This document shows, in pieces, positions 12,683 through 27,759 of a stretch of 30,980 nucleotides of DNA (positions within the stretch are counted from its first letter, which is position 1; every line of letters begins with the position of its first letter). Made by a program: the position numbers and the translations under genes. The notes beneath the pieces are model-generated. The model had not been told where the DNA came from and searched no databases. It saw only the letters and a list, made by a program, of their open reading frames with translations. The DNA is from a virus. The stretch lies in IMG/VR virus record IMGVR_UViG_3300032285_001860, positions 1 to 30,980 of that record. One strand, given 5' to 3'.

Positions 12683-13510
12683 TTAGGGAAGATTTGCATA
12701 CAAATGGGTTTGAAGTTGAAGTGTGAATCCATGACGCATTGCCAGCAGTGCTGCATACTCGTGATTGCCTTGGTTGCTATTTGGATCCAAGAGACCTGGT
12801 GTCCAGAATGAAATTCTTTCATCAACTTCACTGCGCATCTCCAAGCTGGCATTGTTGCCCACCTTTTCAGGCGCACGATTGTAGATGTTCATGGGGCTCA
12901 CATACACACTGCGTGGACCCTTCTGCTTGCGGAAGTCATGTGCAAACTGAGGCACTTCATGATGATTGCTGGCAGTGTCTGCGCTTACCACAAACTTGAG
13001 AACATTGGCACGTTCAAACACATCTGGACGAATGTCTCCATAATGTCCTGTGTTCTCGTTGGCCTTGGGACTTACCACCAGGGTAGTTTTGGCTGGTAGT
13101 GGACGTAGGAAGTCCCCGTTGCTTTCAATCTGAGTGCGGAAGCCCTGTTCATGTAGGAATTCCAGGAAGGCAGTAAGATTGCGCTGTAGCATGGGTTCCC
13201 CACCTGTTACCACAATCAGCAAGTTGTCCATGAAGCTTTCACGCACAATACAGTTGTTCTCCACTTCCTTGTCCACTGCTCCATGGATCTTGCTCAAGAT
13301 TTGATCAAAAGTGAGGATGTCACCGCTGTCAAACCAAGTGTCGCAGAATGCGCAAGCACGGTTGCACTTGCTGAGCCTCACAAACACTGCTGGCTCTCCA
13401 CTGAAGGGGCCCTCACCTTGCAGTGTAGCAAAGCAGCTGGTTACCATAACCTCATTGGGCTTTAGATCTTTGAAGAAGGTGGGACTGACTATTTCATTTT
13501 TACCAAACAT
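12683..13510 (-). CDS. queE: QueE, 7-carboxy-7-deazaguanine synthase (radical SAM), 275 aa
   Basis: The radical-SAM cluster motif C-x3-C-x2-C is at Cys49, Cys53 and Cys56 (CNRACAFC). VVTGGEP near residue 110 binds SAM, and LQTHLYANLP is the characteristic QueE C-terminus. QueE converts carboxy-tetrahydropterin, made by QueD, to CDG, the first 7-deazaguanine. FolE, encoded directly upstream, supplies the pathway's first step, and DpdA, four genes further upstream, inserts the finished base into DNA. At 275 aa it is somewhat longer than many bacterial QueE proteins, with an insertion around residues 80-105. ATG 13510 follows CAGGAA at good spacing. Confidence 0.9.
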   Translation of the reverse strand: MFGKNEIVSPTFFKDLKPNEVMVTSCFATLQGEGPFSGEPAVFVRLSKCNRACAFCDTWFDSGDILTFDQILSKIHGAVDKEVENNCIVRESFMDNLLIVVTGGEPMLQRNLTAFLEFLHEQGFRTQIESNGDFLRPLPAKTTLVVSPKANENTGHYGDIRPDVFERANVLKFVVSADTASNHHEVPQFAHDFRKQKGPRSVYVSPMNIYNRAPEKVGNNASLEMRSEVDERISFWTPGLLDPNSNQGNHEYAALLAMRHGFTLQLQTHLYANLP

Positions 13511-13577: not shown

Positions 13578-14327
13578 TCAATAGACCCCCTTGCCTCCTG
13601 CTGACTGCTGTAGCTTGATATTATCAAAGAATTCCTTTTTGGTGGAAGGATCTTCCTTGAATCGCCCATATAGCACAGTCGTTTGTGTGAGTGAGCTGGT
13701 GGCCATGATTCCTCTGTTGGTGCAACAACCATGTTCGGCACCAATATGAACTGCCACATTCTCTGTGCCAGTGGCCTTCTTGATCTCTTGAGCAATGTCA
13801 GTGCAAAGTTCCTCTTGTAGAGTTCCACGTCGGGCACACCACTGAGCAATGCGTGTGTATTTGCTTAGACCAATCACTTTGCCATTGGGAATAATACCCA
13901 CATAGGCCACCCCAGTCACTGGTTGATGGTGATGACTGCACACGCTCTTGAGTTCACTTCTGATCACCAACATGCCATCATAGGCAGTGTCACCTTCATT
14001 GGGAAAGGCTGTCACATTGGGACTGGGATAGTATCTGCCGCGCATGATTTCATGCACATACATTTTGGCCAGTCGTCTGGCTGTGTCATGACTGTTGGGA
14101 TCGTTGTCAATATCAATTACAAGGCTTTCCAAAACACCCTGGAACTTTTGTTGGATTTCATCCACCAAAAGATCTCGTTCCTCTTGAGAAACAAACTCAC
14201 TGATGTTGTCGTTGGCAAAGAAACGTCCGCCACGGTTTTGTATGCGTTGTTTGATCACTTGGCTGATGGGAGCACAAGTGCAATCTAGGTCACTTGTACC
14301 ATCGTCTGCTTGAAATTGGTTGTTCAT
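13578..14327 (-). CDS. folE: FolE, GTP cyclohydrolase I, 249 aa
   Basis: Zinc ligands are visible: Cys130 and His133 in SVCSHHHQPVTG, and Cys201 in EHGCCTNRG. The conserved VIGLSKYTRI helix follows at residues 151-160. FolE converts GTP to dihydroneopterin triphosphate, the first step toward both folate and 7-deazaguanines. Beside queE and dpdA it most likely feeds deazaguanine synthesis. The first 35 residues carry an extra Cys-x-Cys segment (DLDCTCAP) not needed for catalysis. ATG 14327 has AGAGGA upstream, and two stacked promoters precede it. Confidence 0.92.
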   Translation of the reverse strand: MNNQFQADDGTSDLDCTCAPISQVIKQRIQNRGGRFFANDNISEFVSQEERDLLVDEIQQKFQGVLESLVIDIDNDPNSHDTARRLAKMYVHEIMRGRYYPSPNVTAFPNEGDTAYDGMLVIRSELKSVCSHHHQPVTGVAYVGIIPNGKVIGLSKYTRIAQWCARRGTLQEELCTDIAQEIKKATGTENVAVHIGAEHGCCTNRGIMATSSLTQTTVLYGRFKEDPSTKKEFFDNIKLQQSAGGKGVY

Positions 14328-14354
14328 TTTTATCCTCTAGATAGGTATGCACTG

Positions 14355-14405
14355 ATTATAATGCATGTGTGGGTTGAGTCTAGTGCTGGGAGTCACAGTT
14401 GACAA
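14355..14405 (-). promoter_or_regulatory. Two overlapping sigma70-type promoters before folE
   Basis: P1: TTGTCA (14400-14405), 17 bases, TAGACT (14377-14382). P2 may reuse TAGACT as -35, with TATAAT (14355-14360) 16 bases on. The TATAAT is a perfect -10. Confidence 0.6.
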
Positions 14406-14421
14406 TATATTTGACGCTACA

Positions 14422-14802
14422 TCAGCCACGAAATGCTTGAATAAGTCTGGCGATCAATCCTGGCTTGCTTGCTCTCTTCTCCTTGGAGTCATTCATGATG
14501 TGTTCCAGTTGGGATCTCGACACTAGCCTGGATTTTTTATTGTTGTTTGTAGTGGACCTGGAGCTCAAACTGAGTTTGGCATGAACTGGGTCAGTATCAT
14601 TATCAATGCAATAATTGATAGTTGCATTTAGGTTGGCCAGTTCATGATTTAATTTGTCCAACTTGTTTTGAAGTTCCAGGAAGTTGTCTCTGGATTCGTC
14701 CACTTGTTGGGAAAGAATGTTGGCTTCCAAACGTAAGAGGCGCCACTCCTCAACCAGGGGCAGCAGTTCCTCTGTTTTTACTTCATACACTGGTTTTGCC
14801 AC
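14422..14802 (-). CDS. Coiled-coil protein, third of three tandem paralogues, 126 aa
   Basis: Function unknown. A long N-terminal coiled coil (about residues 10-65) leads into INYCIDNDTDPVHAKLSLSS. It shares with the two genes upstream the pattern aromatic/hydrophobic-x-x-D/G-x-x-P-x-x-A-x-L after the coil. The C-terminus is basic, ending KPGLIARLIQAFRG, an amphipathic helix. The GTG start at 14802 overlaps the previous gene by 20 bases. It is the last gene of the dpdA operon before the folE promoter. Confidence 0.68.
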   Translation of the reverse strand: MAKPVYEVKTEELLPLVEEWRLLRLEANILSQQVDESRDNFLELQNKLDKLNHELANLNATINYCIDNDTDPVHAKLSLSSRSTTNNNKKSRLVSRSQLEHIMNDSKEKRASKPGLIARLIQAFRG

Positions 14803-15235
14803 TGTGAGTTACAGAACTGGTATATGTTGTGGATCCTCCGCCCACACCGCCGCAGGAAATAGTAATAGGACTGGCACTCAAGGTGAGAGTGGAGTGTGGA
14901 GTCAGTGTGGTGGCCGAGACTCCTGAATGACCCACCATTGTGTTATACACGCTGGCGGCACCTGCAATGCTGGACATATTGTACACAGTGCCACTTCCCA
15001 ATTGTTTTCTCATCTGTTCCCTAGTGTGCTTTAACAAGGCTTCAGTTGGCTGTTCGCCAGTCAACACGCACCAATCAATCAGCTCTTTCATCTGAGCAAT
15101 TTCAGAGTTTCTCTTATGCTGCTGTAGGTTCATTGCCTCCCTCTTTTGTTCCAGATGTGTGATCCGGGATTGATGGATATGTGCTTGCTTTATCTTTTTG
15201 CGAAATTCTTTTATCAAGGAATTGAGTGTTTTCAT
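14783..15235 (-). CDS. Coiled-coil protein with Ser/Thr/Gly-rich tail, second paralogue, 150 aa
   Basis: Function unknown. Residues 1-55 are a basic coiled coil. The shared paralogue motif is LIDWCVLTGEQPTEALLKHT, and residues 80-150 are low-complexity Ser/Thr/Gly/Val, with little predicted structure. The ATG at 15235 overlaps the stop of the first paralogue (ATGA). The distinct tail suggests that this copy has diverged for a surface-exposed or linker role. Confidence 0.68.
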   Translation of the reverse strand: MKTLNSLIKEFRKKIKQAHIHQSRITHLEQKREAMNLQQHKRNSEIAQMKELIDWCVLTGEQPTEALLKHTREQMRKQLGSGTVYNMSSIAGAASVYNTMVGHSGVSATTLTPHSTLTLSASPITISCGGVGGGSTTYTSSVTHSGKTSV

Positions 15236-15663
15236 GTTTTGTCCTTTGTGGCGTTGGCCAGGCCCCGTCGCATGGCATCCACCATGCGGCTTTTGTAAAT
15301 ATCCCGTGCCGCAGCGTGCTTCTCTGGTCCCATATCGGGATAATTGGTGTGATTATCAAAAAAGTTGTAGTCTGATCCTACTGCTCCCAGTAGTTCGAAC
15401 CTAGACTGTTGGGTTTTTCGCTCAATCTCTTTTTGACTGAGCTGCAGACTGGCAGCCACAGGGTCCTCGCCTGTTTCCAGCACATAATCCAAAAGCCTAC
15501 GTTGTTGATCAATATCGTTTTGGATTTGATCGTTTAGTTGGTCCAAGGTGTTGATCTGCTGCCTTAGTGCTTTGATCTGTTCCTTGTTGGAGGCCACAGA
15601 TTGGCGTAACTCCAAAATCTGTCCCACAACTTCTGTAACACTTGCCTTGAGATTGTCTTCCAT
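15232..15663 (-). CDS. Coiled-coil protein, first of three tandem paralogues, 143 aa
   Basis: Function unknown. Residues 5-60 are a heptad-rich coiled coil (ILELRQSVASNKEQIKALRQ). It is followed by LLDYVLETGEDPVAASLQLS, the motif that recurs in the next two genes. The C-terminal third is basic (AARDIYKSRMVDAMRRGL). ATG 15663 lies 8 bases after the dpdA stop with a usable GGAG site (GTAAGGAGAATC), so it belongs to the dpdA transcript. Confidence 0.7.
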   Translation of the reverse strand: MEDNLKASVTEVVGQILELRQSVASNKEQIKALRQQINTLDQLNDQIQNDIDQQRRLLDYVLETGEDPVAASLQLSQKEIERKTQQSRFELLGAVGSDYNFFDNHTNYPDMGPEKHAAARDIYKSRMVDAMRRGLANATKDKT

Positions 15664-15671
15664 GATTCTCC

Positions 15672-17324
15672 TTACAGCAGACCCAAATCCATGCTGATGG
15701 AGTTGTCTGCATCCATTCCACTCAAATTACAAAGCATCTTCTGGTGCTTGTCAATCAGCGTCATAGGCTTTTCACTTGTGAGGATCTGTTCACAAAGTCC
15801 ACTGGCAAACTCCAGCACATCAGGTGTGAGTATTTCCTTGGCTTGGCTGATGGGCAAGTCCTGTGCAGCGCATGCTTGCTGAATTGCATCAATGTGTAAT
15901 TCCACATTGTGATTCATGAGCAGCACATAGCTCATGCCGTCCATGCTGCTGGGCCACTTGACCTGATACTTGTTACGTTCGTCATCAAACTCATTAGCAG
16001 TCCAGTCAAACAAACCACCATGATCACCATGATGGGTCATGTATTCCTTGTAGGCATCACTGTAACGGAACGTGTCACCTGCCCTACCTTCAGGAGTCAG
16101 TGGATACCAATCACTTTCCAGTTCTTTCTTTGTGAAAGCCACCTTCTTGTGCTTTAGATCCTCATAGCCCTTGCAGCATACATCACCCAGGGTGATGGCT
16201 TTGCAGATCTCGCTTTCACGATGTGCCCATTTTAGGTTGCGAGCGTTGATCCATTCCTGGATCAATTGTGGATTACCCTTGAGCGCCTTGTCGTCAGGAA
16301 TGTTACCACCCTTGAACGCAATATTCTGTGGGCTCAGTTCCCAGCTATAGTAAATGTTACCCTTGGCCACATTCACAAACGGGCTAGCAGCATCATAGCT
16401 GAGCGTGACCTTCTCATTGATATGCTTGCGCCACACTCTCTGGAGGGTTGTAAGGGCACATCCCATTTTGATCTTGCCATTGCCCAGATAGTGGATCCAG
16501 TCACGCCCATCCAAATACTTGCTATCCCTCTGTAGAATGATACGTCGCAAATTGATGGCAAAGTTGCTGGCCTGCACATTTGAGTAGGCCCAGGTTTCAA
16601 AAGGCAAGTCCTTGACCACATCCCACCACACATCACCTTCCTCCTGGTTACGACCCTGAAGCACGTTCATGAACCTGGTGGCACCTTCCTTGCGATTACG
16701 AATAAAGAAGTCATGATTTTCCATGCTGCTGTTCAAACAGTCACGGAAGTTCTTGACTCCAGGATGCAAGTTTTCTCCAGTAACCGGGTCGTTACCAAAC
16801 TTGAGCAAGCTGCCAGTGGGCACGTCCAGCACCATGCTGTAATCACATGAGTGTTCCAGCCAGCGCAAAATTTGCATACGAATGGCATCTTTGTCCTTGA
16901 CCCAGCTGGCATCGTCCTGGTTGGGCTTTTTCTGCCAAGGCCATTTGAGCACACCAGTTGCAATTTGATAACCACCACTGTCGCCAATGATCACAGTCTT
17001 GTCCTTGGCTCTCTTTTGTACCATGCTTTCCACAACATCACTCTGCTCCAGATCCCACACACTGTGGCCGCTGGAGTAGAGCGAGATGGGATAAAAGAAC
17101 AGATTGGTTTTATGATCCAAAAAGTCCAAATCTCGCAGCCCACCCTTTAGTCCAGCAGGAATTCTGCTGGTAGGGTCACTCTGTTGGCGTGCATAGATTG
17201 CCGAAATGCTCGGCAAAAATACGGCATAGTCCTTATTGCTAGTCCATAGATCCTTGCCAGCAACTTCGCCCATGTTGTCATAGGTCTGCGCCACATGTGG
17301 ATTGGGGCTTGTGAGTTTTTTCAT
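15672..17324 (-). CDS. dpdA: DpdA, 7-deazaguanine DNA transglycosylase (TGT superfamily), 550 aa
   Basis: It resembles tRNA-guanine transglycosylase. IIGDSGGYQIATG gives the substrate-binding Asp115 of the D-S-G-G-F/Y-Q motif. VLDVPTG gives Asp167. After a VLQGR segment (residue 221), LSYDAASPF gives Asp311 at the place of the TGT nucleophile. The TGT zinc motif C-x-C-x2-C is absent, as expected for DpdA rather than tRNA-TGT. DpdA swaps guanine in DNA for a 7-deazaguanine and protects phage DNA from restriction. At 550 aa it is longer than TGT. The ribosome site is weak, so it is probably coupled to the upstream glycosyltransferase. Confidence 0.82.
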   Translation of the reverse strand: MKKLTSPNPHVAQTYDNMGEVAGKDLWTSNKDYAVFLPSISAIYARQQSDPTSRIPAGLKGGLRDLDFLDHKTNLFFYPISLYSSGHSVWDLEQSDVVESMVQKRAKDKTVIIGDSGGYQIATGVLKWPWQKKPNQDDASWVKDKDAIRMQILRWLEHSCDYSMVLDVPTGSLLKFGNDPVTGENLHPGVKNFRDCLNSSMENHDFFIRNRKEGATRFMNVLQGRNQEEGDVWWDVVKDLPFETWAYSNVQASNFAINLRRIILQRDSKYLDGRDWIHYLGNGKIKMGCALTTLQRVWRKHINEKVTLSYDAASPFVNVAKGNIYYSWELSPQNIAFKGGNIPDDKALKGNPQLIQEWINARNLKWAHRESEICKAITLGDVCCKGYEDLKHKKVAFTKKELESDWYPLTPEGRAGDTFRYSDAYKEYMTHHGDHGGLFDWTANEFDDERNKYQVKWPSSMDGMSYVLLMNHNVELHIDAIQQACAAQDLPISQAKEILTPDVLEFASGLCEQILTSEKPMTLIDKHQKMLCNLSGMDADNSISMDLGLL

Positions 17325-22655: not shown

Positions 22656-23465
22656 TTATTGAGTATTTTGCTGCGGATCAGCTTTGAGGAACAGAGTTTC
22701 CACCCTGTTGGTGATCTTTTGCAACGGGGGCAAATCCCAAGCGTGCATTTCGGACCTTAGCAACAAAGTGCCCAGGTCAGGCCTGTGGTTGAGCGGAATA
22801 GATGCCCATTCTTGCGGATCAAAGGCGCGCTGCACCAAATGCTTGCGGACAAATGTGCCACGCTTGAATGCACTGGGATAATCGTTAAAATTTACGGCTT
22901 TGGCGAACAGCATTTCCTGCTTTTCTGCCCCACTCTTGCCCTGTAGCTCTGCGTGGCTGTAGTAGTGGTGAGCAGCCATGCTGATGGCATTTTTGGTGCA
23001 GTCCAAGTTGCGCCACAAAAAGCAGTTGGCCAGCTCATCCAGGTTGGGCACCTGGAACACACGGCAGTCAAAGTGAGGCATGCGACTAAAATACTGCTGC
23101 CAGTCTGAGAAGTTGTGGATGATACCATCCACAAATGACACAGTGGCCATGCTTGCTAGCACACTTGTGAGCTTGTGAATCTTACCTCCAAACCAAGGCT
23201 CACTGGTGTGATCTGTGTTGGCCCAGGCCAAGCTGATCTCATCACTTTGCACATAGCCCAGGGTAGCCTGACTCTTGTCCACCAAATATTTGGTGGCGTG
23301 TATCATGGCAGCGGTCATGCGACCGTCAAAAGGTCTCTCCATGTCCCTTGTAAACTTGCTAAAGCCGCGCCCATCAATTCGTGCATAAATGGGCACACCA
23401 GGTAAAAACCTTTGCTCAGTTTCTCGTGCCTCATAGGATTTGAGACGATCGCCTAGATCATCCAT
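22656..23465 (-). CDS. Thg1-like 3'-5' RNA polymerase (tRNA-His guanylyltransferase family), 269 aa
   Basis: The Thg1 catalytic residues are present: IYARIDGRGFSKFTR at residues 26-40 (Asp31, Gly32) and YVQSDEISLAW at 71-81 (Asp75, Glu76). The family adds nucleotides in the 3'-5' direction to the 5' end of tRNA; bacterial and phage relatives (TLPs) often repair truncated tRNA 5' ends. With RlaP and two more nucleotidyltransferases in the window, an RNA-repair role against host tRNA cleavage is plausible but inferred. ATG 23465 with AAAGG upstream is preferred over the 15-codon longer frame. It has a perfect-spacing promoter and a strong terminator, so it is its own unit. Confidence 0.85.
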   Translation of the reverse strand: MDDLGDRLKSYEARETEQRFLPGVPIYARIDGRGFSKFTRDMERPFDGRMTAAMIHATKYLVDKSQATLGYVQSDEISLAWANTDHTSEPWFGGKIHKLTSVLASMATVSFVDGIIHNFSDWQQYFSRMPHFDCRVFQVPNLDELANCFLWRNLDCTKNAISMAAHHYYSHAELQGKSGAEKQEMLFAKAVNFNDYPSAFKRGTFVRKHLVQRAFDPQEWASIPLNHRPDLGTLLLRSEMHAWDLPPLQKITNRVETLFLKADPQQNTQ

Positions 23466-23497
23466 CAGCAAGCCTTTCTGTCTGCATTTTATAGCCC

Positions 23498-23526
23498 AGT
23501 ATATCAGCAAATACAGACAGTGTCAA
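23498..23526 (-). promoter_or_regulatory. Strong sigma70-type promoter for the Thg1-like gene
   Basis: TTGACA (23521-23526), 17 bases, TATACT (23498-23503): the -35 is perfect and the -10 is one base off. Confidence 0.8.
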
Positions 23527-24248: not shown

Positions 24249-25268
24249 TTAAAAACTAAACAGGTCTTCAAAAGTTTCATTCTTGCGAGCGTCGTTGAGA
24301 TTCCAACCCATTACTCCCAACAAGTTTTCAACCTTCTTGGTGATCAGACTTTCACTCATTTCCTCATCATCAAAAGGCATCTCCTTGAACCAGTCTGGAA
24401 GGATCAGCTGGTCCACAGGATATGCCACACTGGTCAATCCCAGAGGATTTTGCTTGAGCTTGCAAACGATAACCTTGTAGCCGTCTTGTATTTCCATGCT
24501 GTTGTTGTCGCTGTAAACTTTGCGCAACCTGTTCCAGTTTAGGCTTGCACGAACATGGCCTGGAATGGCCTTGTTGGCACCATGCTTACGCTCATCAAAC
24601 ACATTGCCCATACCGCCTTCCTGCTTTCTCATAAGGTCTCCATAGTATGTGAGCTTGTTGACTCTCTTGGGGGTGCCCTTGGCCCAGCTGGGCCATCCAG
24701 CAAACTCTTCCCTAAACAGTTTGATCTGTTCAAACACAGCTTCCTTGGTGCCATCTGTGAGCACGTTCACCAAAACATTGCTCAAGAACTCTTGCACTGG
24801 CTTGGGAGTATCACTGCGCTTGAGGTCCAGGCCCATAGCCTTGATTTCTCCAGGCTTTCCATCCTTGTCCTTGCGCTTGCCCTCCTTGTCAAAGATCAAC
24901 ACAGCATATCGTTTCTTGGTAATAAACATTCCCTTGCTGGCGCATAGTTCACGTCCTGCCTTGATCACACTGTTTGATTCTGGAACGTTGAAGTTCTTGT
25001 TCATGAATTCTGGAAAGCTTTGATTGGTTATTTCAGCAATTTGATCATACAACTTTACCACATCTGCCTTGTCCCAGCCAAAGTCACTGAACTCCGCCTG
25101 ATTCTTCATAATGGGATATGCGCTAAAATAAATTGAATCAGTGTTGTGTAGGAGGATATCGTTACCAAAGAAATAAGGGTCTTGATTCTTTACACTTATG
25201 TCATAGACGTAGTCATCTACCTCACCCAGGCACTCTACCTTGGTTACTCTTGTGTATTCTGTATCCAT
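24249..25268 (-). CDS. 43: DNA polymerase (gp43-like) C-part preceded by C-intein, 339 aa
   Basis: ATG 25268 has AAGGAA 9 bases upstream. Residues 1-42 are a C-terminal split-intein half: block F VYDISVKNQDPYFFGNDILL, then the terminal His-Asn. The first extein residue is Thr43, in TDSIYF, the second half of polymerase motif C. About 297 residues of palm and thumb follow, with KAMGLDLKRSDTPK resembling the K-x-Y region of family-B polymerases. Alone it has only one of the motif-C aspartates and cannot polymerise. After trans-splicing with the N-part it gives a polymerase of about 990 residues. Its frame differs from that of the N-part. Confidence 0.88.
   Translation of the reverse strand: MDTEYTRVTKVECLGEVDDYVYDISVKNQDPYFFGNDILLHNTDSIYFSAYPIMKNQAEFSDFGWDKADVVKLYDQIAEITNQSFPEFMNKNFNVPESNSVIKAGRELCASKGMFITKKRYAVLIFDKEGKRKDKDGKPGEIKAMGLDLKRSDTPKPVQEFLSNVLVNVLTDGTKEAVFEQIKLFREEFAGWPSWAKGTPKRVNKLTYYGDLMRKQEGGMGNVFDERKHGANKAIPGHVRASLNWNRLRKVYSDNNSMEIQDGYKVIVCKLKQNPLGLTSVAYPVDQLILPDWFKEMPFDDEEMSESLITKKVENLLGVMGWNLNDARKNETFEDLFSF
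25143..25268 (-). other. C-terminal half of a split intein (42 aa)
   Basis: From its own ATG to the terminal His-Asn at 25143-25148, followed by Thr as the +1 nucleophile. Its length and block F are typical of split-intein C halves. No homing-endonuclease sequence is present. Confidence 0.87.
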
Positions 25269-25326
25269 TCTGCTACTTCCTTCAATACTTGTTCTTTGTG
25301 GAATATCATTTATTATGCGCAAGATA

Positions 25327-27759
25327 TCATAATAGCAAGGTAATGATATTATCTGTATCTCGAATCTCATTCGGTTTGACCTCAACAAGGAGTCCATCTC
25401 GATCAACCATAAGACTGTGATCCTCAGTTACAGTTATTTGCTTACCATTATCAGTGGTAATGCGATATAATTTCTTGCGAGTCTTGTGGCGCATAACAGC
25501 CTCAACACCACTCAATACCGGCTCCATTTCGTGTCCATTGAAACCAATAACCCTGGCTAGGCTCCAGAGCCCATACTCCTTACCATCCCTGGTAGTGCTG
25601 TGCTCCAGACATTCGTTAAAAAGTTGTTCAATAGTCACATTGCCTTTGTCAGTGCGGATGATTGTATCACCTGTAACACTGTCTCCGTAGATAACACTTG
25701 CCCCTTTATGATTATAGTCCCCAGCAATCAACTCATTGATCTTACTGCCCATGTGACGCACGATACAACGGCCTGTGAGAGTAGTGCTTTGAGCAATGCG
25801 ACTGTCATGCCAGGCTGAGCTGGCATTACCAATAGCGCCATATAGGCTGTTCAGCAAAATTTTACGAATCAGCTGGCGTCTATCCCAAAAGTCTCTCTGA
25901 ATTTTAAACTCGTTAATCACATCTGGATCTTGACTTCTTAGAATGATCTTGTGGTGTTCCAGTGTAACATTGTATTTGCGCATGAACGCAACCACAGCAG
26001 CATAATTGCCCTTTTTCATGAGCTCAACTAGGCCATGCTGTCCGTCCCAAGTGCCTTCAATATTAGGATCGTTTAGTGCAGATTCCAAGGGCTCTGCATA
26101 CTTTTCCAAACCATCCTTGAGCTCAATGCCACCGCTGAGCAGGTCCACGTATTCACGTGCTTGAGCCTGCATCTGTTTCCTCTGGGAATACCAACGTGCC
26201 AACAAACCTGGAACAATTCCTTCTCTGTCCACACTGAAGATGGTGCCGTTGGCACTCACGCACATCTTACGCTTGGGATTTTCAAAGATCCACTGATACA
26301 ACTCGTCCCCGCTCATGTTCACATTGCTGCCATCGTTTAAGTCTACAGTGAGAATCACCTGCTCACGGTTCATCATCTGCGCATATTCCAGAATGCTGAA
26401 CATCTCATTCCAGGAATCAGCAAAGCTGCGCTTTTCCTCTTTCATGCGTTTTTGGATCAGGCGGTTGGTGGCATCCATGCGGATTTGCCCCACCACTGTT
26501 TCCTTGCTCATGTTGAGTGTGCGAATGGCTGATGGATACAGACTGTTGATGTCCACTCCTCCAATCCAGTCATGCATTCCTTGAACTGGGTCTGCCACGT
26601 AAGCGCCCACGATGCCCTTGGGCGTTCCATCCCCCAGCTCATCGTCATCTTCCACAAGCTCTTCGTCTCGGAACTCTCTGGGAGGACGAGCTGGAATATG
26701 GTAACCCAGGTCATGTGCTTCATTGGTGATGGCATTGTCAATCAACAACACTGAGCCCAGTGTGGTGTTGAGCAACACTCCGTTGGTGTGTGCCAGATCG
26801 TTGCTCAGCTCAATGAACTTGAGCTTGTTGTCGATTTTTACCAGCAGCATCACATCCTGACGGTTGTAGGCAATAAACTTTTCAAAGTCTTCGTTGTAGA
26901 GCTTGTCAAGGCTGCCTTCATATGCAATCTTGTGATCACCTACTTCATACTCGCCCACAAAGTCCAAGCGATAGCTGTGCATTTCATGATAGGTGTGCTT
27001 GCGATACAAGTCCAAATAGTCCAAATGCACGCGCCCAAACAAGTCATATGTGAACTGAGTCTTGCCATACATTTCATATTCACGCTTCTTGGGAAACTTG
27101 TTCCACAAGCACAAGCGGCGAGTTTGCTCGCGACTCATCACCTGCACAATACGATTGTGCAAATAGGGAATATCGTAGCCTGAGCTGTTCCAACCTGTGA
27201 GCACGTCTGCATCTTCAATGATGCTCAAAAACACATCCAACAGTTGCTCTTCTGTGTCACACAACACAGTGTTTTCAAACTTTTCGCAAATGTCCTGTGC
27301 CTGTTCATATGTGTAACTCTTGGGTTTGATCACCAATGTGAAGTTGGTGCTGAGCCAGTTACAATACACACTCACAGCAGTGATGGGATTGAAAGCCTCT
27401 TCAGTGCTGCTGAATCCCTTCTTTTTGTCAAAGTCCACTTCCAAGTCAAAATAGGCAATATGCAACTGCGGACTGGCAGTGTTGCGATAATGGTCATAAA
27501 AACAACGGAAAATGGGATTGATGTCGCTCTCATAACGCTTTTCAGGAGCAATCATTCGCAGCTCTTTTTGGAACTCCTCCCATCTATTGGTTTCAAACTT
27601 GTCCAGTGGTTCACCATAGATGCTTGTGTATTTGCCCTTGATGCTGGGAAACATCACCACATGACGACTGGGATAGCTTACAAACCGCCTCTCACCATTC
27701 ACACGCTCAACCACATCAATACTGTGTTTGTCTTTGTTCCAAACAGCGTCTACATACAT
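25327..27759 (-). CDS. 43: DNA polymerase (gp43-like) N-part followed by N-intein, 810 aa
   Basis: Family-B polymerase with proofreading motifs ExoI (YFDLEV, Asp105/Glu107), ExoII (LTGWNSSGYDIPYL) and ExoIII (YNRQDVM). The polymerase motifs are A (GGVDINSLYPSAI) and B (RKILLNSLYGAIGN), and motif C begins VIYGD. The extein stops after YGD at residue 693. Residues 694-810 are an N-intein starting Ser-Val-Thr-Gly-Asp-Thr, with block B TEDHSLMV. The frame ends at TGA 25327, and the rest of the enzyme is a separate gene. ATG 27759 has AGGAGA at 8 bases. It is transcribed with dsbA and a membrane-protein gene from the promoter at 28372-28400. Confidence 0.9.
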   Translation of the reverse strand: MYVDAVWNKDKHSIDVVERVNGERRFVSYPSRHVVMFPSIKGKYTSIYGEPLDKFETNRWEEFQKELRMIAPEKRYESDINPIFRCFYDHYRNTASPQLHIAYFDLEVDFDKKKGFSSTEEAFNPITAVSVYCNWLSTNFTLVIKPKSYTYEQAQDICEKFENTVLCDTEEQLLDVFLSIIEDADVLTGWNSSGYDIPYLHNRIVQVMSREQTRRLCLWNKFPKKREYEMYGKTQFTYDLFGRVHLDYLDLYRKHTYHEMHSYRLDFVGEYEVGDHKIAYEGSLDKLYNEDFEKFIAYNRQDVMLLVKIDNKLKFIELSNDLAHTNGVLLNTTLGSVLLIDNAITNEAHDLGYHIPARPPREFRDEELVEDDDELGDGTPKGIVGAYVADPVQGMHDWIGGVDINSLYPSAIRTLNMSKETVVGQIRMDATNRLIQKRMKEEKRSFADSWNEMFSILEYAQMMNREQVILTVDLNDGSNVNMSGDELYQWIFENPKRKMCVSANGTIFSVDREGIVPGLLARWYSQRKQMQAQAREYVDLLSGGIELKDGLEKYAEPLESALNDPNIEGTWDGQHGLVELMKKGNYAAVVAFMRKYNVTLEHHKIILRSQDPDVINEFKIQRDFWDRRQLIRKILLNSLYGAIGNASSAWHDSRIAQSTTLTGRCIVRHMGSKINELIAGDYNHKGASVIYGDSVTGDTIIRTDKGNVTIEQLFNECLEHSTTRDGKEYGLWSLARVIGFNGHEMEPVLSGVEAVMRHKTRKKLYRITTDNGKQITVTEDHSLMVDRDGLLVEVKPNEIRDTDNIITLLL
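25330..25680 (-). other. N-terminal half of a split intein (117 aa)
   Basis: Starts with Ser directly after Tyr-Gly-Asp of motif C, has block A (SVTGDTIIRTDKG) and block B (T-E-D-H), and ends at the stop codon. It is inserted at the same motif-C position (YGD/TDS) used by archaeal family-B polymerase inteins. Confidence 0.87.

Follow-up and report, generated by a model that had tools for sequence, protein, structure and literature searches.

In a freshwater phage, three small genes adjoin a gene for DNA-base modification, and each of their products carries a coiled coil followed by the same short motif. Are these proteins truly related, do they recur together in other phages, and what might they do beside such a gene? 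We addressed these questions in a 30,980-base IMG/VR virus record, the whole of which is called the window below.

Layout of the trio and its neighbours

The three open reading frames (ORFs), here called genes A, B and C, lie exactly where a first-pass annotation of the window had placed them and have the sizes it gave (143, 150 and 126 amino acids). The two motif sequences that it quoted are also correct (Table 1). Its overlaps of 4 and 20 nt stand in part: A and B share 4 nt (ATGA), while the 20-nt overlap of B and C holds only if C starts at GTG 14802. In locus L008, gene C starts at a GTG within B, 8 nt from its end; by this comparison, GTG 14790 is the more likely start of C in the window, which would leave an overlap of 8 nt. 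Start and stop codons of the trio overlap or nearly touch in several relatives' genomes too, and these junctions support the proposal that the three genes are laid out for translation together.

Table 1. Features of the window, and leader RNAs of related contigs (contig handle before the colon).
Feature	Position	Strand	Remarks
Gene A	15232..15663	-	143-aa ORF, paralogue
Gene B	14783..15235	-	150-aa ORF, paralogue
Gene C	14422..14802	-	126-aa ORF, paralogue, basic tail; likely start GTG at 14790, giving 122 aa
Gene A motif LDYVLETGEDPVAASL	15445..15492	-	residues 58-73
Gene B motif IDWCVLTGEQPTEALL	15032..15079	-	residues 53-68
Gene C motif INYCIDNDTDPVHAKL	14572..14619	-	residues 62-77
dpdA-like gene	15672..17324	-	TGT-superfamily transglycosylase by motifs; DSGGYQ (115-120), YDAASP (310-315)
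Promoter-like site TAGACT-16-TATAAT	14355..14382	-	in the gap separating C from folE; matches the consensus, nothing more
folE	13578..14327	-	GTP cyclohydrolase I (preQ0 pathway), downstream of trio; Pfam PF01227, E 2.5e-41
queE	12683..13510	-	7-carboxy-7-deazaguanine synthase-like radical SAM protein; phrog_2076, E 5e-46
Leader RNA	L076:16678-16746	-	
Leader RNA	L077:5659-5727	-	
Leader RNA	L070:13549-13617		
Leader RNA	L075:3522-3592		
Leader RNA	L072:9702-9767	-	
Leader RNA	L118:7812-7879	-	
Leader RNA	L161:11180-11249		
Leader RNA	L163:350-414	-	
Leader RNA	L137:3708-3776	-	
Leader RNA	L102:7237-7306	-	
Leader RNA	L095:2054-2124	-	

The stop codon of the dpdA-like gene (550 codons) is separated from the start of gene A by 8 nt. 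The trio closes this gene run, as the first-pass annotation had it, but does not end the deazaguanine cluster, because folE and queE follow it beyond a gap of 94 nt, with no change of strand. That gap contains the promoter-like site of Table 1; such sites are no more numerous in the region than in shuffles. The QueE-like product also matches TIGR04322 at E 2.6e-24, which is under the curated cutoff.

The name dpdA, given from motifs and context only, appears a fair one because the product has TGT-like motifs and its neighbours belong to the preQ0 pathway. It carries the two marks of the TGT superfamily, DSGG[FY]Q and a catalytic Asp in an FDxxxP-like motif, and its probable nucleophile is Asp311. 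The forms DSGG[FY]Q and [FY]D-x-x-SP are invariant across eight relatives, and E. coli TGT has DSGGFQ and FDCVMP. At the family level no profile match was found, with no Pfam hit and an hhalign probability of only 5-6 per cent.

Three further features of the window were noted. Its folE (window 13578-14424 region) is of a different type from that of most relatives, with 36-40 per cent identity to theirs, and has a different leader; the folE of G009/L011 resembles it in size and start. A single replacement may have exchanged both the gene and its leader. By eye, the DNA polymerase frame (24249-27759, minus strand) is split into two overlapping ORFs, with the intein-like sequences YGDSVTGDTII and NDILLHNTDSIYF at the break and a change of frame within the insert. 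Finally, the product of 22656-23510 (minus strand) looks by eye like a tRNA-His guanylyltransferase (Thg1-like) and is conserved at 66-75 per cent in G002, G004 and G006.

Paralogy and predicted fold

The first-pass annotation had taken the three proteins for paralogues, a view that a motif no better than expected for unrelated coiled coils would refute. We built profiles from A (eight sequences), B (ten) and C (four) and aligned them with hhalign. All three pairs matched strongly (A-B: probability 98.6, E 1.2e-15; A-C: 96.4, E 1e-9; B-C: 95.0, E 3.8e-8). The twenty-two-column motif alone scored 43.0 (A-B), 31.3 (A-C) and 21.3 (B-C), and beat every one of its column shuffles, sixty for each pair, the maxima of which were 13.1, 9.8 and 15.0. 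The coil alone also scored above its shuffles, and coil plus motif scored far above coil plus shuffled motif. Because motif, coil and the two together all exceed their shuffles, the family is real, and A, B and C are genuine paralogues with a similarity far beyond chance; the refutation that the first-pass annotation had proposed fails. The motif (consensus hh-D/N-aromatic-C-hh-x-T-G-E/D-x-P-x-x-A-x-L) directly follows the coiled-coil head and is gap-free in twelve paralogues from five genomes.

AlphaFold2 models gene A as a helix (residues 2-64), a turn, a short helix (68-74), another helix (77-105) and a less certain, variable tail helix, with pLDDT above 90 across most of the long helix. 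The model of gene B has a long helix (4-59), helices at 63-69 and 72-80, and a disordered Ser/Thr/Gly-rich tail (84-150). Both models show the same succession of helix, turn, short helix and helix, with high confidence in the head, and A and B are predicted to share one fold, in which a long helix bends sharply at a Gly/Pro turn into two short helices and a variable tail. From these helix boundaries, the motif would therefore be a cap, made of the end of the long helix, the Gly turn and the short helix that starts at Pro. Almost every member shows a significant heptad periodicity in its head, the best period being about 3.5. The window's own B is the weak case (best period 3.8, with 18 per cent of shuffles as strong); its close relative L4B passes the same test.

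Across A, B and C the tails vary in length, charge and composition. A Ser/Thr/Gly-rich tail and a basic tail had both been described before and both exist, the former in B (51 per cent S/T/G/N); the strongly basic one belongs to C (net +8), and the tail of A is predicted to be helical with a net charge of +2.

That no known family could be recognized was borne out by the searches. In Pfam, PHROGs, NCBIfam, PADLOC, the PDB and 50,697 phage records, A, B and C match nothing beyond the coiled coil: the libraries and PDB sequences gave scattered coiled-coil matches only, and nothing in the first four was above the curated cut-off or covered the motif consistently. One candidate, phrog_18116, aligns repeatedly and in the same register with the motif of B and C members, but it is unspecific and also gives matches in eight of fourteen control genomes. 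Foldseek against BFVD returned a best E of 2.5 (probability 0.11). The TG turn after the coil prompted a comparison with T4 gp57A, likewise a small coiled-coil protein of a phage, whose coil is followed by a short C-terminal segment. Homology was rejected (hhalign probability below 1 per cent, coil only); gp57A is single-copy, in contrast to the tandem triplet here, and lacks motif similarity. A hypothetical protein of Xanthomonas phage PhiXhv-15 (P0001) ends in LLMDWCIKHGKTPTEAFF, which is closely motif-like. Its coil and motif are non-continuous, however, and it was found through a non-significant hit (E 5); this likeness is probably chance or convergence.

Distribution and evolution in related contigs

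Relatives were gathered by dpdA-guided and B-guided scans of viral contigs (loci L002-L026). The first-pass annotation had suggested looking for the same triplet beside dpdA in other phages, and it does recur there: all three genes lie directly behind dpdA in L004, L007 and L008, and also, with frame damage, in L009. Three other loci (L005, L006, L023) have only A and B behind dpdA, and L010 has B alone. The family shows tandem copies in one gene run behind dpdA, with G001 (A and B without dpdA) and G002 (B only) as exceptions. A and B occur together in every intact locus except one, and of the three B is conserved best and spread most widely. Several related phages lack C, and in L004 (L004:8520-8807) a short deletion truncates it to ninety-six amino acids. 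At L008:6025-6180 part of the gene A tail has recently been duplicated.

G001 is a 71-kb contig in which A and B are present and dpdA is not detectable. It also encodes RIIA/RIIB, a DNA polymerase, a virion protein and a DnaK-like protein. Because G001 may be a fragment, dpdA could still lie elsewhere in that phage. Tandem leucine-rich-repeat-like small proteins (NxLTSLxGxPxHVGxxF) occur in multiple copies both at L005:11182-12485 and in the G001 contig (L065, L068), and are common to dpdA phages and this contig.

The family is absent at the profile level from PA5oct and Phosso, and it is also missing from five further contigs with a 32-42 per cent identical dpdA; phages whose dpdA is 29-42 per cent identical lack it. 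G009 has dpdA and lacks the trio. BLAST found no significant relative in isolated phage genomes, and a pattern search of a bacterial genome collection with one short stretch, which is non-exhaustive, gave no match. A profile match in OLIVR5 (E 0.008) has a stop inside and was judged to be coil noise.

A tree of the heads recovers a B clade and a C clade (support 0.96 each) and sets A apart with a weaker 0.76. Because the tree separates B and C from A, the duplications are old and predate the divergence of these phages. In the pair of the window and L004, the three genes have dN/dS values of 0.25-0.33 (0.25 for gene A), and for B in L005/L006 the value reaches 0.53, compared with 0.06-0.11 for dpdA in close pairs. 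Heads are tighter than tails in most of these comparisons. Head identity is about 25-46 per cent where dpdA is 73-87 per cent identical; for example, between the window and G004, B has 27 per cent identity, dpdA 84 per cent and QueE 83 per cent. A, B and C are under purifying selection, yet evolve far faster than dpdA; they are functional, fast-changing proteins.

A conserved RNA fills the 70-nt leader that separates folE from the last coiled-coil gene in relatives. Its three hairpins are followed by a ribosome site, and CGU may pair with ACG of the third loop in a 3-bp pseudoknot. Across six sequences 98 per cent of cells pair and eight pairs change on both sides, a number reached by none of 500 shuffles; sliding the register destroys both pairing and covariation. 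Eleven sequences (Table 1), five of them from distant-dpdA phages and one from a phage in which no dpdA was detected, bear out the first and third hairpins. The elements CCGTTG and ACGATAGA are invariant. Every full match precedes folE, mostly in dpdA phages, and in L137, L102 and L095 a GIY-YIG endonuclease gene lies between leader and folE, directly behind the leader's ribosome site. No Rfam family matched at its gathering score; a weak freshwater-2 match in one leader (E 1.6) was not seen when seven leaders, the same member included, were searched together. We regard the leader as a candidate riboswitch or other new cis-regulatory RNA for the preQ0 pathway. When the window was searched with a covariance model of these leaders, no copy was found.

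Possible functions

We favour a lineage-specific, hetero-oligomeric adaptor: A, B and C would be made together as a non-enzymatic coiled-coil protein set with a constant core and exchangeable tails, aimed at a variable partner. Our confidence in it falls a little short of even. Three anciently duplicated subunits of one small phage family would each consist of a coiled-coil helix, some 55-60 residues long, at the N terminus, a conserved cap in which the chain breaks at Gly and resumes as a short helix at Pro, and a fast-changing tail. Translated together, the subunits would probably zip through their coils into a mixed oligomer, the cap setting register or oligomer state. Such an oligomer would display helical (A), Ser/Thr-rich (B) and basic (C) tails, which may bind a partner that itself varies; a factor of the host or a phage component that evolves fast would be the likeliest. 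Since the genes constantly occur together and are coupled in translation, we infer that the three are probably parts of one complex. The analysis shows paralogy, old duplication, one predicted fold for A and B, overlapping genes, and purifying selection combined with fast divergence, all of which speak for the adaptor. Counting against it, C is truncated in L004. Fast evolution could also reflect weak constraint on a coiled coil instead of a changing partner. A strict, obligate A-B-C complex is excluded for all genomes because L010 keeps only B.

A role in the virion or its assembly is possible but doubtful. The trio would then be small coiled-coil scaffolds or tail-fibre chaperones, acting as the coiled-coil protein gp57A does for the tail fibres of T4, with the B tail as a structural extension. 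That tail is Ser/Thr/Gly-rich with short beta-prone runs, a gene of virion-structural phrog_13349 lies in the same strand run, and the 71-kb contig has a virion structural protein about 5 kb from A and B. However, the similarity to gp57A is limited to the coil, the trio sits amid DNA-metabolism genes, and fast turnover and loss of members would be unusual for core assembly factors.

We consider it unlikely that the trio is a counter-defence complementing 7-deazaguanine modification, inhibiting nucleases that attack modified DNA as T4 internal protein I or Arn would. Like T4 IPI-IPIII and Arn, these proteins are small, fast-evolving, and paralogous or clustered near DNA modification functions; the fold of the T4 proteins differs from the trio as far as known, and no sequence match was seen. 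The location beside dpdA, folE and queE, the strong divergence and tail turnover, and the varying number of paralogues fit such a role, whereas matches in PADLOC and the other libraries amount to coiled-coil noise only and A and B lie away from dpdA in the 71-kb contig.

It is very improbable that the trio are accessory subunits of the DpdA transglycosylase, for DNA recruitment or sequence choice: they are its immediate, close-packed neighbours in close-lineage contigs with a readable dpdA 3' flank, except G009, but phages with a more distant dpdA (PA5oct, Phosso, G012, G013, G015-G017) lack the family, G009 has dpdA without the trio, G001 has A and B with no dpdA found in 71 kb, and trio and dpdA evolve at very different rates. 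Since members are lost, A and B occur without dpdA in G001, and distant dpdA phages lack the family, essential or obligatory DpdA subunits are unlikely, and a dedicated link to DpdA is weakened.

Taking the adaptor further, it is a long shot that the trio represents a new class of modular phage hetero-oligomer, with a fixed core of coil and cap and three exchangeable tails, that is made in step with the base-modification enzyme and provides a second layer of protection, this one of protein, against host nucleases. If the trio does act beside base modification, it would show a phage coupling chemical DNA protection to protein counter-measures; if it serves in the virion or in assembly, it would show tandem duplication diversifying small coiled-coil parts. 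This coherent family is present in none of the searched libraries, and its diagnostic motif now makes it possible to find its members and put them to the test.
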